DNA from: Deltaproteobacteria bacterium
GTDB lineage: Bacteria > Myxococcota_A > UBA9160 > SZUA-336
Direction: 5' to 3'
DNA length: 5,173 nucleotides
NCBI GenBank assembly: GCA_030665705.1
Contig: DAOUZG010000159.1
Location: 1 to 5,173 of the forward strand
How positions within the stretch are numbered: position 1 is the first letter of the stretch; every line of letters starts with the position of its first letter. The notes below the pieces were generated by a model. That model was given only the letters and a program-made list of their open reading frames with translations. It was not told where the DNA came from and searched no databases. The translations under genes and the position numbers were made by a program. Positions 2 through 5,173 of this stretch are shown one piece after another.

Positions 2-463
2 GGCGTGAAGCTGGATCGGACCTATCAGCTCAACACGGGAGGGAACACCGATTTCTTGAACATGCTGGAGCAGTCCCGCCTGCGCTCGAAGCGGACCTCG
101 AAGACGGAGTCGGTTCAGTCTCAGCTCGACGTACCCCTGCCAGCCGACTGTATCCACATCGGACCGTCGGACTACGTGGCCTGGCAGAAAGACACCAAGG
201 TGTGCTTCGTCCGGATGGACTGGAGAGGGTTCGGCGAGCGACCGATGAACCTGGAGCTGAGGCTCAGCGTCGAGGATTCGCCCAACAGCGCAGGCGTCGC
301 AATCGACGCGATCCGCTGTGCCAAGCTCGCCCTCGAGCGCCGAGTCGGCGGACCACTAAAGGCAGTCTCGGCGTTCACAATGAAGCATCCGCCCGAGCAG
401 ATGCGCGACACCGACGCTCTGCAGGCTCTCGAGGCGTTTATTTCAGCGTCCGCAGCTGGGTAA
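2..463 (+). CDS. ino1: myo-inositol-1-phosphate synthase, C-terminal part (5' end outside window)
   Basis: This enzyme converts glucose 6-phosphate to 1L-myo-inositol 1-phosphate using NAD, the first step of inositol synthesis, in the cytoplasm. The visible 153 residues are roughly the last third of a protein that is usually 360-440 residues or more. The frame is open to the left edge, so the GTG at position 5 is an internal valine and not a start. Recognisable blocks, counted from the first complete codon, are LDRTYQLNTGGNTDFLNM near residues 4-21, IHIGPSDYV near 51-59, and NLELRLSVEDSPNSAG near 83-98. The four lysines I recall as catalytic in the yeast enzyme (K369, K373, K412, K489) have matching positions here: K30 and K34 (spacing RSK-x2-SK), K66 (KDTKV) and K128 (TMKHP). 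The visible part therefore looks intact and active. It ends in TAA, 9 bases from the stop of the convergent selenoprotein gene. Family assignment is very secure; the N-terminal Rossmann part is not visible. Confidence 0.95.
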   Translation, partial: GVKLDRTYQLNTGGNTDFLNMLEQSRLRSKRTSKTESVQSQLDVPLPADCIHIGPSDYVAWQKDTKVCFVRMDWRGFGERPMNLELRLSVEDSPNSAGVAIDAIRCAKLALERRVGGPLKAVSAFTMKHPPEQMRDTDALQALEAFISASAAG

Positions 464-472
464 CTGATAAGA

Positions 473-688
473 CTAACGGAGCTGGTCGAGGACTTCTTTG
501 TGCGTGGGGAAGCGGCCCGTCTTGTCCTTCGAGTAGATCAGCTTGCCGTCCGCCTCGACGTCGAAAATGCCGTTGGCTCCCCTGACGAGCTTCGCATCGA
601 CGCCGAACTCCTCCTTGATCTTGGCCGCCAGACTGGAGGCCTGCGGGAGGTAGTCTCAGGGGACGCAGTAGGTGATCGAGATGCGCAT
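473..688 (-). CDS. SelW/Rdx-family selenoprotein (CxxU), UGA read as selenocysteine
   Basis: This is a small thioredoxin-like-fold redox protein of the SelT/SelW/SelH (Rdx) family, probably cytoplasmic. Family members are thought to do thiol-based redox chemistry with partners such as thioredoxin or glutathione; the exact substrate is unknown. It is read from ATG at 688-686 to TAG at 475-473, giving 71 residues including one selenocysteine. The N-terminus begins MRISITYCVP, then TGA at 656-658, then DYLPQAS. C8 and Sec11 thus form the CxxU motif right after the first beta strand, exactly where SelW proteins have it. Further family signatures follow: an amphipathic helix (AAKIKEEFG), the strand segment GIFDVEADGKLIYSK, and the ending TGRFPTHKEVLDQL. 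Length is normal for bacterial Rdx proteins (about 70-100 residues). An AGGAGGT ribosome site lies 6 bases before the ATG, and a SECIS-like hairpin follows the TGA. It is the last gene of a minus-strand run, 60 bases after the GH116 stop. Standard translation would end after 10 residues. A pseudogene is unlikely, because the only stop falls at the redox position and the rest is conserved. Confidence 0.92.
623..641 (-). promoter_or_regulatory. bacterial SECIS-like stem-loop downstream of the UGA
   Basis: On the minus strand, GGCC at 641-638 pairs with GGCC at 626-623. A U/C mismatch follows, then CC pairs with GG, enclosing the loop AGUCU at 634-630 (an A-U pair could shrink it to GUC). The loop begins 21 bases after the UGA, inside the range known for bacterial SECIS elements. 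It exposes a G and a U at downstream positions 23 and 24. The apical CAGUCUG resembles CAGGUCUG as I recall it from the E. coli fdhF element, where loop G and U are needed for SelB binding. The element lies wholly within coding sequence, as bacterial SECIS elements do. No folding energy was calculated. Confidence 0.7.
656..658 (-). other. in-frame UGA recoded as selenocysteine
   Basis: The TGA codon falls at residue 11 of the Rdx protein, as the second redox residue of a C-V-P-U motif. Non-selenium homologues carry Cys at this position. The frame stays open and family-like on both sides, which supports recoding over termination. Confidence 0.9.
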
Positions 689-694
689 CGTGGG

Positions 695-701
695 ACCTCC
701 T
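695..701 (-). promoter_or_regulatory. strong ribosome binding site of the selenoprotein gene
   Basis: AGGAGGT on the minus strand lies 6 bases upstream of the ATG at 688. It is a near-perfect Shine-Dalgarno sequence, which fixes the start and argues that this TGA-interrupted gene is translated. Confidence 0.85.
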
Positions 702-748: not shown

Positions 749-3415
749 CTAGCTGCGGGAACGTTTCCGGCGAGAGAGGTGCGTCGACGGTTCAACGGTC
801 AAGCTGAAGGACCGGCCTTCGCCGAGTGTCACCTGGGCCGGGAACTGGATCTCGAGGGATCGACCTCGACGTTGAAGGCCGACTCCCTCGGGGCCGTGTC
901 GTACCTCGAGACGGGCAGAGCCCCGAGGCCCGGGCCACTCGAGGCCGATGCATTGCAGGTCGAGGCACCCGCCGAGCACCCGTAACGTCACCGCTAGACG
1001 CTGCCCCCTTCGGGTCTGCTCGAACGTGCCCCACGCGGTGCCGGCGGTGAACAGACCGCGGAACCGGGTCGGCTGAACCCGGGGCGCAAACGCCAGCCGT
1101 TTCTCGACCCCGTCCCACGAGAAGCCGGACAGCGCATGGAGGATCGACCACGACGACATGGCCCGGGCGTAGTGGTGACCGCACTCGACCTCGTCCCAGG
1201 GATTGCGCTTGCGTCCGTCGTATCGGTTCCGAGCCGCCCGCACGATCTCGAGCCCCTCGCGCACGTCTCCCTCCCACATGAGATGAGCTGCCACGTGGTA
1301 CTCGATTCCCGTCCACACCTCGTCCGAATAGGGGAAGGGCAGGGTCGGCCGTCCCCCGTGCGGCCAACTGCACAGGACGAGGCCCGACTCATCACCCGTT
1401 GCGTAGATCCTCTGTGCGTTCGGGTGCTCGTGGAAGCCTCGTCGGAAGTTATGCCGGAAGATCGAGCGCAACGCGCGCATCACTCGCCGTCGCGGCAGCA
1501 CCCGTTCGAGGCCTGCGCAGCGGGCCATCCACTCCCCGAGGAGCTGATCGGAGAGACACCCCTCGCCGATCTGGTACCGGGGCGGCTCGCCGGGCGCGAT
1601 CCCATCGAGGGATCCCCCGAGTGATCCGGTTCGATGGGAATCCGTGCGGATCTCGTCGGAAGAGGGAATCCGTTGCACGTAGTACGCGCCGTTCCAACAC
1701 AGTTCGTCCAGCCGCCGGGCTCCTTGGTCCGCAAGCGCGGTGTAGCGGCGCGCCGACTCGACATCTCCGACCCCCGCGGCCATCCCGGCGCCCGCGCGAA
1801 GTGCGGCGAGGTAGATCGTGCCCGAGAGCGGGTTCGGGCCGTAGAACTCGATGTCGTAGGTGACGTGTTGCTCGCCGTCCATCACGCCATCCCGGTCCGT
1901 GTCCCACTGGACAAAGGCGTACTCGAGCGCACGCTTGGCGTCGGGCCAGAGCTTTTCCATCCATGGGGTGTTCCCGCTGATGCGCCATTCTCGATAGAGC
2001 TTAATGATCTCGCCCATCTGCCCGTCGGCGGAGGGCTTTCGGTCGAAGCGCGCTCCCTCCCGTAGCGGAAGGAGACTCCGGAAGGCCTGACGCCCGTCTT
2101 CGAAGAGGTTCGCCTGGAGACCCGTAACACGAAGCGTTCGCTCGAGACTCGGCCAGAGGTGGGGAAGGGCCTGCGCGTAGTTCCAGACGTGCGTGCAGTC
2201 CATCGGGCAGCAACCCACGTGGTCGAAGCAGCCCTCGAACGCGTGGAAGCTCCCGGTGTCGAGGCGCAGACAGGTCGGGGTGCGGAGCGTTGAAATCTGG
2301 CTCGAAGCGGCGTCGAGTGCCTCCGTGGGCAGGGTCTGTCCGAAGAAGGCGGCATGGAAGTGCCGCGTGGCCTGCTCGAGGTGGGGCAGGTGCTCCGAGG
2401 CGTGATTCGCCACCGCGAGGGCGCTGTCGAACCGGGTCGCGTACCAGGCACGGAGCGGCTTTCGCGCGACGCGGGGCTCCTCGAGGTTCCAGCTATTTTC
2501 GAAATCGGGGAAGTACCACGCGAGCAGAAAGACCACGTCTCGTGAAGCACCAGCGGGCAGGGGCACGGTGTCGCCGATCGACCCCGGGTCCGACCGGGCC
2601 GGCGGGGAGGGCGTCTCGTCGATCTCTCCCGAGAGCCGGCCGGTTGCAACCAGGCCGTCCCAGAAAAGCTGCAGGTCGTCGAACCACGACGTGCGCGGCC
2701 ACCGCGTCTGCACGGTCGGGTTGGTTGCATCGACGACGCCGAGGAAGATCGAGCCGTCCGGCGTGGAGGGGACCTCGGTCGACCCTCGAGTCAGGTGGAG
2801 TCCCACGAGCTTCCCGGGACCACGGACATACTCGTTCCGGTTTCCGCCCAGCGAGCCGTGCGCACGCCTGAAGGGCACCGCTTGCCCGTCGAGCCCCACG
2901 GCGTTGAAGAGCGATCCCACGACGCTCACGTCGAGGCGACGCGATGTTCGGTTCCGGAGCCGGTAGCGCAGAATTGCGAGAGGGAGCCCCGACTCGTCAG
3001 CGTCAAGGGGGATCAGCGGGTTCCAGGCCTCGAGTTCGACGGACACCGGAAAGCGCGGGTCCGAGAGCCGCACGGTTGCGAAGGGATACTCTCCGCGGAA
3101 GACCGCACGCTGAAAGTGGGGGAGTCCCTGCCCCTGCTCCCTGGGCAGGCCGAAGCCACCTGCGTCGTACGGGGGCCTCATGGGAGCTGCGAGGACGCGC
3201 GCCCGCGCCGGTCCGCGCCCACCCGACGGACGCGCGGCGACGGCGAAGAACGTGCAAGGGAGCACGTAGCCCTTTCCAGGACGGTTCCACCACTCGAAGT
3301 CGATCAACGCCCCCCGACCCGAAAGCGAGACACACCCGGCTCCGATCCCCCCGATCGGAAAGGCGATCCGCGCGAGCGCGTCTCCGGAGAATGACCGCAT
3401 TCGCGTCGTTCTCAC
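749..3415 (-). CDS. GH116 family beta-glucosidase (GBA2-like, DUF608)
   Basis: This is a retaining glycoside hydrolase of family GH116, which includes GBA2 (glucosylceramidase) and archaeal beta-glucosidases/xylosidases. It should hydrolyse beta-glucosides or related beta-glycosides. No signal peptide or membrane segment is seen, so it is probably cytoplasmic. The N-terminal beta-sandwich domain starts with FPIGGIGAG (residues 19-27) and NRPGKG (44-49). The C-terminal (alpha/alpha)6 catalytic domain starts near 345. E394 in the motif FEGCF fits the nucleophile and D521 in TYDIEFYG fits the acid/base. Their spacing of 127 equals that I recall for Sulfolobus SSO1353 (E335/D462). A D-x-D-x-DG loop at 505-510 precedes the acid/base, as in GBA2. 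EVWTGIEYH (about 699-707) and GHHYAR (746-751) are further conserved blocks. The GTG start at 3415 is chosen because AGGGAGA lies 7 bases upstream; the ATG at 3400 (883 residues) is the alternative. It lies 76 bases after the racemase gene. The natural substrate cannot be told from sequence. Confidence 0.93.
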   Translation of the reverse strand: MRTTRMRSFSGDALARIAFPIGGIGAGCVSLSGRGALIDFEWWNRPGKGYVLPCTFFAVAARPSGGRGPARARVLAAPMRPPYDAGGFGLPREQGQGLPHFQRAVFRGEYPFATVRLSDPRFPVSVELEAWNPLIPLDADESGLPLAILRYRLRNRTSRRLDVSVVGSLFNAVGLDGQAVPFRRAHGSLGGNRNEYVRGPGKLVGLHLTRGSTEVPSTPDGSIFLGVVDATNPTVQTRWPRTSWFDDLQLFWDGLVATGRLSGEIDETPSPPARSDPGSIGDTVPLPAGASRDVVFLLAWYFPDFENSWNLEEPRVARKPLRAWYATRFDSALAVANHASEHLPHLEQATRHFHAAFFGQTLPTEALDAASSQISTLRTPTCLRLDTGSFHAFEGCFDHVGCCPMDCTHVWNYAQALPHLWPSLERTLRVTGLQANLFEDGRQAFRSLLPLREGARFDRKPSADGQMGEIIKLYREWRISGNTPWMEKLWPDAKRALEYAFVQWDTDRDGVMDGEQHVTYDIEFYGPNPLSGTIYLAALRAGAGMAAGVGDVESARRYTALADQGARRLDELCWNGAYYVQRIPSSDEIRTDSHRTGSLGGSLDGIAPGEPPRYQIGEGCLSDQLLGEWMARCAGLERVLPRRRVMRALRSIFRHNFRRGFHEHPNAQRIYATGDESGLVLCSWPHGGRPTLPFPYSDEVWTGIEYHVAAHLMWEGDVREGLEIVRAARNRYDGRKRNPWDEVECGHHYARAMSSWSILHALSGFSWDGVEKRLAFAPRVQPTRFRGLFTAGTAWGTFEQTRRGQRLAVTLRVLGGCLDLQCIGLEWPGPRGSARLEVRHGPEGVGLQRRGRSLEIQFPAQVTLGEGRSFSLTVEPSTHLSRRKRSRS

Positions 3416-3491: not shown

Positions 3492-4631
3492 CTAGGCGAT
3501 GGCCCCGATCTTCCGAAGCCTTGAAATCTCCTCGGACGGAAAACCCCAGTCTGCGAGTGTCTCGTCGGTGTGCTCGCCGGGCCAGGCCGGGGGACGCCGG
3601 ATCTGGCACGCCGTACGGCTGAAGCGCGGGGCGGGACCGGGTTGAAGGGTTCCGGCAACCTCGACGAACGTCTTCCTCGCGCGGTTGTGCGGGTGCTCGT
3701 ACGCCTCGGGAATCGAGAGCACCGGGGCAAAGCAGACATCAGTCCCTTCGAGGATCTCGCACCACTCCTCCCGTGTACGGGCTTTGAAGATTTCTTCGAA
3801 CCGCTCCTTGAGCTCGGGCCAACGAGCTCGATCGGTGTGCGGAAGGTCTTCACCCTCGAGCTCCAGGCGCTGGAGCAGCTCCGCGTAGAACTGGGGTTCG
3901 ATCGCGCCGATCGAAATGTACTTGCCGTCCGCGGTCTCGTAGACGTCGTAGAAGTGCGCGCCGGTATCGAGCAGATTCTCACCTCGCTGATCGGTCCAGA
4001 TCCCCATGTGTCGGAGTCCGTGGATCAGCGTCATGAGCGCCGCGGCGCCGTCGACCATCGCCGCGTCGACGACCTGCCCTCTGCCCGATCGCTCTCGCTC
4101 GTACAGGGCGCAGACGATCCCGAAAGCGAGTAACATCCCGCCGCCGCCGAAATCGCCGACCAGGTTCAGGGGGGGCACCGGACGCTCTCCCGCTCGCCCA
4201 ATGCCGTGCAGCGCTCCAGCCAACGCGATGTAGTTGATGTCGTGACCGGACGCCTTTGCCAACGGTCCTTCCTGCCCCCAGCCGGTCATCCGTCCGTAGA
4301 CCAAGCGCGGGTTCCGCTCGAGGCAGACGTCGGGACCGATCCCGATGCGTTCGGCCACGCCAGCACGAAAACCTTCGAGCAGCACGTCGGCCCGATCCGC
4401 GAGCCGCAGCGCAACCTCGACCCCTTCGGGGTTCTTGAGGTTCACGGCGACCGAGCGGCGACCCCGACCCATGACGTCCAGGTTGGGTCCGTCGTGAGTC
4501 GGCATCTCGGCTCGGTCGACCCGGTCGACGCGCACGAGCTCCGCTCCCATGTCTGCGAGCATCATCGCGCAGAACGGACCCGGTCCGATTCCCGCGATCT
4601 CCACGACCTTTACACCCTCGAGCGGCCCCAC
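3492..4631 (-). CDS. amacr: alpha-methylacyl-CoA racemase (CaiB/BaiF CoA-transferase family III)
   Basis: This enzyme interconverts the (2R) and (2S) forms of 2-methylacyl-CoA esters, allowing branched chains such as sterol side chains or isoprenoid fatty acids to enter beta-oxidation; it is cytoplasmic. The 379-residue protein closely resembles the Mycobacterium tuberculosis racemase MCR as I recall it (about 360 residues). Shared blocks include EIAGIGPGPF (11-20), RMTGWGQ (114-120), PVPPLNLVGDFGGG (151-164), GQVVDAAMVDG (185-195) and GAIEPQFYA (242-250). The MCR catalytic residues H126, D156 and E241 correspond to H130, D160 and E245 here, with one constant offset of four. That supports a racemase over a true CoA transferase, in which a catalytic Asp attacks the CoA ester. 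The start is GTG at 4631, with GGAGAGG just upstream; no ATG fits. It lies 65 bases after the GH3 stop and 76 bases before GH116 on the same strand, so co-transcription is plausible. Racemase identity is strong; the actual acyl-CoA substrate is unknown. Confidence 0.93.
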   Translation of the reverse strand: MGPLEGVKVVEIAGIGPGPFCAMMLADMGAELVRVDRVDRAEMPTHDGPNLDVMGRGRRSVAVNLKNPEGVEVALRLADRADVLLEGFRAGVAERIGIGPDVCLERNPRLVYGRMTGWGQEGPLAKASGHDINYIALAGALHGIGRAGERPVPPLNLVGDFGGGGMLLAFGIVCALYERERSGRGQVVDAAMVDGAAALMTLIHGLRHMGIWTDQRGENLLDTGAHFYDVYETADGKYISIGAIEPQFYAELLQRLELEGEDLPHTDRARWPELKERFEEIFKARTREEWCEILEGTDVCFAPVLSIPEAYEHPHNRARKTFVEVAGTLQPGPAPRFSRTACQIRRPPAWPGEHTDETLADWGFPSEEISRLRKIGAIA

Positions 4632-4696: not shown

Positions 4697-5173
4697 CTAC
4701 CGCTCGATGCGGACCTTCGTCTCGTAGCGCCGCACCCCCCGGATCTCACGGATGCTCCCCGCGACCCGGAAAGTTCCGCGCAGCCGAATGTCCTCCGAGG
4801 AGCTCCCGATTTGTACCTCGAACTCCCCGGGCTCGACGACGAGCCGCTGCTTCGGGTCGTAGAACGCGAGCAGGTCTGCAGGGAGGCCGAAACGGAGGGT
4901 CGCTCGCTCGTGGGGGTCGAGCCGGACCCGGCAAAAGCCCTTGAGCTCCTGAATCGGTCGGGTGCAGCTCGCAACCTGATCGCGCACGTAGAGCTGTACG
5001 ACCTCTTCGCCCGGCCGCTCGCCCCCGTTTCGAATTTCGCAGCGCACCTCGAGGGTGCCGTCCGACGGGATCGACTCTGGCTCCACGGCGAGGCCCCCGT
5101 ACTCGAAGTCGGTGTACGAAAGGCCGTGACCGAAGGGAAAAAGCGGCGCGATCGGGGAGGTCACGTAATCCTT
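4697..5173 (-). CDS. GH3 family beta-glucosidase, C-terminal fibronectin III-like domain (5' end outside window)
   Basis: These 158 residues are the C-terminal end of a family 3 glycoside hydrolase, typically 700-850 residues, that removes terminal beta-linked sugars. The frame is open to the right edge and begins KDYVTSP, so the GTG at 5164 is internal and not a start. The hallmark linker PLFPFGHGLSYTDF comes first, followed by the fibronectin III-like domain with GEEVVQLYVRD, RPIQELKGF and PGEFEVQIGSSSEDIRL. The GH3 catalytic Asp and acid/base lie upstream, outside the window, so activity, substrate and localisation cannot be judged. It is the first visible gene of the minus-strand run, 65 bases before the racemase gene. 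GH3 identity is secure. The family includes glucosidases, xylosidases and other activities, so beta-glucosidase is the likeliest but not the only label. Confidence 0.93.
   Translation of the reverse strand, partial: KDYVTSPIAPLFPFGHGLSYTDFEYGGLAVEPESIPSDGTLEVRCEIRNGGERPGEEVVQLYVRDQVASCTRPIQELKGFCRVRLDPHERATLRFGLPADLLAFYDPKQRLVVEPGEFEVQIGSSSEDIRLRGTFRVAGSIREIRGVRRYETKVRIER

Follow-up and report, generated by a model that had tools for sequence, protein, structure and literature searches.

The locus and its genes

The window, that is, the whole 5,173-nucleotide stretch of DNA analyzed here, carries a small rdx/selW-like gene on its minus strand. The gene and its features are listed below, with the kind of evidence for each.

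473 to 688, minus strand: rdx/selW-like gene of 71 codons plus a TAG stop (473-475), with its ATG at 686-688 (translation, family profiles, copies elsewhere)
656 to 658, minus strand: in-frame TGA at codon 11, likely selenocysteine (Sec), the U of a CxxU motif (the TGA recurs in relatives)
665 to 667, minus strand: codon of Cys8, the Cys of CxxU and the putative resolving residue (invariant in the 18 rows of alignment A1)
695 to 701, minus strand: Shine-Dalgarno sequence AGGAGGT, with the ATG 6 nt downstream (sequence)
623 to 641, minus strand: predicted bacterial SECIS hairpin, GGCC-U-CCAGUCUGG-C-GGCC, with a U.C mismatch in the stem (folding, covariation)
630 to 634, minus strand: apical loop AGUCU, which starts 21 nt past the TGA and contains the conserved G; its A and last U can pair
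632 to 634, minus strand: Ser19 codon AGT, possibly fixed by the loop (AGT in all 96 aligned Ser19 codons)

Other genes in the window are the following.

2 to 463, plus strand: C-terminal part of myo-inositol-1-phosphate synthase, convergent with rdx
749 to 3390, minus strand (start unsettled): glycoside hydrolase family 116 gene with N-terminal and catalytic domains, upstream of rdx and on the same strand
3492 to 4631, minus strand: CoA-transferase family III gene
4697 to 5173, minus strand: Fn3-like end of another gene, cut by the contig end

Translation of the minus strand from 688 to 473 yields MRISITYCVP-TGA-DYLPQASSLAAKIKEEFGVDAKLVRGANGIFDVEADGKLIYSKDKTGRFPTHKEVLDQLR-TAG, a product of 71 residues. 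A preliminary description of this DNA had given the same coordinates and reading, which re-translation reproduced exactly, along with the AGGAGGT ribosome site that it had placed ahead of the gene. The SelW/Rdx family that it had proposed is borne out by profile searches of the protein, with scores above cut-off for both Pfam Rdx PF10262 (67.3 bits versus 22.6) and TIGR02174 (53.7 bits versus 34.2). The score for the NF041051 SelTWH_Campy equivalog, 85 bits, falls slightly below its cut-off of 88, and the protein is therefore filed under the wider Rdx/SelW-like family rather than under this equivalog. As expected for a selenoprotein of that family, a CxxU motif lies near the N-terminus and its TGA is kept in relatives, which supports the proposal, likewise made earlier, that Sec occupies the last position of the motif. 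A search of the window's own genome with alignment A1 recovered no second Rdx copy.

Recurrence of the TGA codon

The genome to which the window belongs is a draft metagenome-assembled genome (MAG) of 1.99 Mb in 338 contigs, estimated to be 75.9% complete. It was searched together with 10 genomes of the same family and 48 of the same class, for a total of 59. The protein was matched in 50 of these, and a copy with exactly one internal TGA occurred in 44. Such copies are 43–64% identical to the window protein (99% for the copy in its own genome), and each of the 44 has its TGA at the same codon, that of U in CxxU. A second, partial TGA match in one genome (G051; 30 residues, at a contig end) was left uncounted.

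A scan of species genomes broadened the sample. It returned 487 stretches encoding a relative, of which 80 were kept as named loci, and codon 11 is TGA in every one of the 80. The scan gave TGA no advantage over Cys codons, because the query carried X at codon 11 and both search patterns lay 3′ of it. Taken from record titles as deposited, the named loci are assigned to Planctomycetota, Acidobacteriota, Deltaproteobacteria/Myxococcales, Beta- and Gammaproteobacteria, Nitrospirae, and Zixibacteria. In the compared stretch, ten of these loci have the same sequence as another row, mostly a class copy, which means that some genes enter both totals, 44 and 80; these ten were omitted from the alignment described below (A3). 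A scan of viral contigs found nine stretches that fit a pattern, none of which encodes a relative.

Stop-free matches also occur among the 59 genomes, 14 in number, and these are distant (29–43% identity). Five of them were read, and all five have Cys at the codon-11 position. The preliminary description had suggested aligning Sec- and Cys-containing homologues at this residue. The Sec copies do align there, but no close Cys relative was found, TGA being the codon in every one of the 44 close copies and 80 kept named loci.

These counts bear on the possibility that the TGA is a sequencing or assembly error and that the true codon is TGC or TGT, encoding a plain Cys form of Rdx. While the window is indeed a contig of a draft MAG in 338 pieces, the same codon recurs in 44 of 44 copies and 80 of 80 kept named loci drawn from many assemblies, and such an error is therefore practically excluded.

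The predicted SECIS hairpin: structure and conservation

Bacterial SECIS elements are described by a set of rules (PMC13188914): a distance of 16–37 nt from the UGA to the apical loop, an upper stem of 4–16 bp, a G within the first two positions of the loop, and a minimum free energy of at most −7.5 kcal/mol. In the window, a hairpin of this kind is predicted 3′ of the TGA, a feature that formed no part of the preliminary description. Its loop, AGUCU, begins at a distance of 21 nt and has its G within the first two positions. The stem comprises seven pairs (six with the A-U pair assigned to the loop), interrupted by the one U.C mismatch, and the free energy is −12.1 kcal/mol for 42 folded nucleotides, a small extra stem included. 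By stability alone the hairpin is unremarkable, with a z-score of −0.64 and 47 of 200 shuffled sequences at least as stable, and for this reason the SECIS assignment rests on conservation. No SECIS family of Rfam gave a match at E-values up to 5 in positions 400–800 of the window. The Rfam family sX15 gave a hit in the same interval with 15.2 bits versus a cut-off of 55, and was rejected as weak.

Conservation was assessed in alignment A3, which holds 113 sequences (111 distinct) from 43 class copies and 70 named genomes. The 44th class copy (L091), which was read separately, keeps the TGA and has the loop AGGCU and Arg19. In all 111 distinct sequences the loop contains AGU, GGU, or AGG, the full tally being AGUUU in 48, AGUCU in 46, GGUCU in 15, and AGGCU in 2. 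Of the 888 cells of the eight stem pairs, 88.7% show standard pairing. Shuffling the 3′ letters lowers this share to 83.2% (sd 0.4), and sliding the partner by one to three columns leaves only 23.1–49.2%. The covariation score is 0.193 versus 0.093 in shuffles, with 0 of 500 shuffles reaching the observed value, and pairs changed on both sides number 4 versus 2.8, a count that 24 of 500 shuffles attain. Kinship between sequences can by itself lift such values above those of shuffles in the absence of structure, a caveat that the slid controls partly answer. All 111 sequences have standard pairs at 20-34, 21-33, 23-31, 24-30, and 25-29, and two of these five change on both sides, with 21-33 represented by five pair types. 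The exceptions are pair 22-32, unpaired in 60 of 111 sequences including the window (its U.C), and the stem-base pairs 18-36 and 19-35, unpaired in 23 and 17 of 111, respectively. As judged from the aligned sequences, then, the base pairs of the stem covary and the hairpin is conserved across copies.

Codon choice at residue 19, which lies in the loop, follows the same pattern. In A3, Ser19 is encoded by AGT in 96 of 96 cases, while AGT makes up 5 of 163 Ser codons within codons 41–68 of the same genes and 3 of 85 in four other genes of the window. Among the 43 class copies, which were found by protein search and hence not chosen by codon, residue 19 is Ser encoded by AGT (36/36), Gly encoded by GGT (6/6), or, once, Arg encoded by AGG. 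A miscalled Cys codon would have to be reconciled with this conserved hairpin 3′ of the TGA, and also with the five Cys relatives read (of 14), which are distant and in no case have AGT at the place of Ser19.

Neighboring genes

Flanks of 0.4–3 kb around the 113 copies, some ended by contig edges, contained 409 open reading frames (ORFs), which were clustered. The largest cluster of neighbors occurs at 6 of 113 loci, and thus no conserved operon is seen. SelB was not recognized among the clusters found at four or more loci. In one genome (G007; L015/L064, G007:C87:26743-28935, minus strand), selB and a TGA-bearing rdx share a strand, with rdx starting ~108 nt past the end of the selB frame, an arrangement that is possibly an operon.

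Selenocysteine machinery of the host

SelB decodes Sec UGA codons in bacterial selenoproteins. The preliminary description had held that the host must carry SelA, SelB, SelD, and the SelC tRNA. For the three proteins this was confirmed in the window's own genome, where all score above cut-off: selA (G000:C45) with 518.9 bits versus 267.9, selB (G000:C97) with 272.8 versus 242.25, and selD (G000:C242) with 339.8 versus 125. Among 14 control genomes, the same cut-offs were exceeded in one, two, and two genomes, respectively. The selB product has a SelB-wing_3 domain. The selD gene (G000:C242:6233-7156, minus strand) has an in-frame TGA of its own, in the context LVPAGG-U-ARKL, so that SelD is likely a selenoprotein too.

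The tRNA, on the other hand, was not found in this assembly (75.9% complete) with RF01852 and ARAGORN. The two best hits to RF01852 were set aside as tRNA-Ser according to ARAGORN, one on C60 with 52.1 bits (gathering score 47) and a CGA anticodon, and one on C296 with 44.2 bits and a TGA anticodon. Matches above the gathering score occur in 5 of the 14 control genomes as well. A tRNA-Sec-like hit, 94–96 nt long and scoring at least 58 bits, is present in 45 of the 59 genomes and in 7 of the 10 same-family relatives, and the anticodon is TCA in each of the three such hits checked.

The missing tRNA is what speaks for a pseudogene, in which the TGA would be a true stop and the gene broken. The frame past the TGA is nevertheless intact, the Rdx motifs are kept, the gene is conserved with its TGA in 44 of 59 genomes, and selA, selB, and selD are present in the own genome; a broken gene is accordingly a very improbable account of the locus. 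Alternatively, a code altered across the whole genome could assign the TGA to Trp or Cys, or the codon could be passed by plain readthrough. In keeping with such a change of code, the five genes read in the window all end in codons other than TGA. However, TGA terminates two genes of the same genome, selA and selD, and is therefore a working stop that has not been reassigned throughout the genome. Moreover, in the Cys relatives read, codon 11 lines up with a Cys of CxxC, and the genome has SelB as well as a SECIS-like hairpin. Decoding as anything other than Sec is thus extremely unlikely. Taken with the family profiles, this evidence makes it very likely that the product of the window gene is an Rdx (SelW-like) protein of 71 residues and that its codon-11 TGA is decoded as Sec by way of the predicted SECIS hairpin downstream.

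Across the 59 draft genomes, the TGA gene and the machinery occur together to a limited degree. Of the 44 genomes with the gene, 28 have all four sel parts, 10 have three, and 6 have two. Among the 15 genomes that lack the gene, all four parts are present in 6. Four genomes (G003, G009, G032, and G050) have none of selA, selB, selD, and tRNA-Sec, and all four lack the TGA gene, although two of them are only 73–74% complete. The association of the gene with each single part is weak, with Fisher p-values of 0.013 for selA, 0.16 for selB, 0.013 for selD, and 0.031 for tRNA-Sec.

Predicted structure, function and mechanism

An AlphaFold model of the protein, with Cys replacing Sec, has a pLDDT of 94.1 and a pTM of 0.80. 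Its 19 best matches in the PDB have TM-scores to the query of 0.92–0.95, and the top entry is titled putative selenoprotein W-related. Rdx proteins are the best PDB matches by structure and by sequence alike. The product is predicted to adopt a thioredoxin-like fold in which Cys8 and Sec11 sit where the first strand ends, and this placement of CxxU in the model suggests selenol/thiol redox chemistry.

Expression would proceed as follows. Ribosomes would start at the ATG downstream of AGGAGGT. SelB, carrying GTP and Sec-tRNA(Sec), would use its winged-helix end to bind the hairpin loop and would deliver Sec at the UGA, while in the absence of selenium a stub of 10 residues would be released. 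The full-length product is a putative selenol/thiol-disulfide oxidoreductase that may act in the reduction of peroxides or protein disulfides.

Representation in protein databases

The preliminary description had also predicted that automated gene calling would miss this gene. Between the TGA and the stop codon, the minus strand has no ORF of at least 20 amino acids that starts with ATG, GTG, or TTG. In a set of 5.8 billion predicted proteins, searched through shared exact words at E-values up to 0.001 and 0.55–1.75 times the query length, just four relatives were returned. All are pieces of 54–62 amino acids that begin past the TGA, and two of the four are named selenoprotein W-related. The prediction is upheld to the extent that it can be judged from ORFs and predicted proteins, and gene-finding programs probably miss the gene. 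In the available text of earlier work, some SelW genes of Epsilonproteobacteria are likewise described as wholly overlooked in annotation.

Comparison with known SelW-like proteins

SelW-like selenoproteins with CxxU and PF10262 are well documented in bacteria, according to the available portions of several papers (PMC1794560, PMC2398784, PMC9312934, PMC13188914), with records, in the portions available, from Geobacter (G. sulfurreducens is listed in PMC1794560), Desulfotalea, and others. A 2006 paper (PMC1794560), in its available text, describes Cys forms of SelW-like proteins as rare or absent in organisms that contain Sec. The available part of a 2008 ocean survey (PMC2398784) counts 427 Sec versus 56 Cys forms of SelW-like proteins, and ranks these proteins and SelD as the most widespread selenoproteins. 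The window gene resembles the known bacterial members in family, in CxxU, and in having a SECIS past the UGA. Its protein has Asp right after Sec, where 107 of the 113 aligned sequences have Asn, and CVPU in place of the commoner CVRU. It comes from a new species, without a difference in kind, and since SelW-like selenoproteins have long been known in bacteria, it adds a member to a known family.

A close parallel is SelW of Campylobacter jejuni, encoded on CJnc60, for which the available text of PMC11955535 reports full-length translation backed by Ribo-seq and proteomics. As described there, this gene, like that of the window, was unannotated and small and uses UGA for Sec. It differs, on the same account, in encoding 80 amino acids and in belonging to another phylum, the window protein scoring just under the NF041051 cut-off.

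Among solved structures, the Rdx proteins 2fa8, 2ojl, 3dex, 2oka, 2obk, and 2p0g share the fold of the window model (TM 0.85–0.95). They are only 23–33% identical to the window protein and longer (103–108 amino acids), and we take all six to be Cys forms. Mouse SelW (2npb), also of the Rdx family, is more remote, with a sequence E-value of 0.00036 and a TM-score of 0.68 to the window protein. In eukaryotes the SECIS lies in the 3′ UTR, a general rule according to the available part of PMC2398784, whereas the window hairpin lies within the coding sequence.

The hairpin and the protein sequence

A hairpin inside a coding sequence may leave its mark on the protein. In A3, columns 22 and 32 form a stem pair that falls in the codons of residues 18 and 21. 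Where column 22 is G (43 distinct sequences), residue 18 is Ala or Val and residue 21 is Ala in every case; none of these sequences has Val21 or Glu21. Those two residues replace Ala21 in 10 of the 68 distinct sequences with Ser18 or Thr18 (Fisher p 0.006, kinship ignored). The combinations are Thr18-Val21 with an A-U pair (5), Ser18-Glu21 with U-A (3), and Ser18-Val21 with U.U (2), such that the change at residue 21 restores the base pair in 8 of 10. Against a coupling, 58 of the 68 Ser18/Thr18 sequences retain Ala21 and leave the pair broken. From these aligned sequences, the RNA hairpin may couple residues 18 and 21. A narrow literature search found nothing on point for such a coupling.

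A broader proposal, offered tentatively and with rather more doubt than conviction, is that the recoding hairpin, and not protein function, sets part of the protein: the codons AGT, GGT, or AGG at residue 19, and Val21 or Glu21 only opposite Thr18 or Ser18, mostly with restoration of the RNA pair.

Significance

The window gene is a well-supported further member of the SelW family, from a draft genome with selA, selB, and a TGA-bearing selD. It also points to a blind spot in annotation, given four truncated relatives from the search of 5.8 billion proteins versus 487 encoding stretches from a single species-genome scan. Tools that detect such genes could benefit from the 113-sequence SECIS alignment. 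Finally, if the hairpin does set part of the protein, this SelW lineage would be bound to selenocysteine in several phyla and would for the most part escape protein databases.
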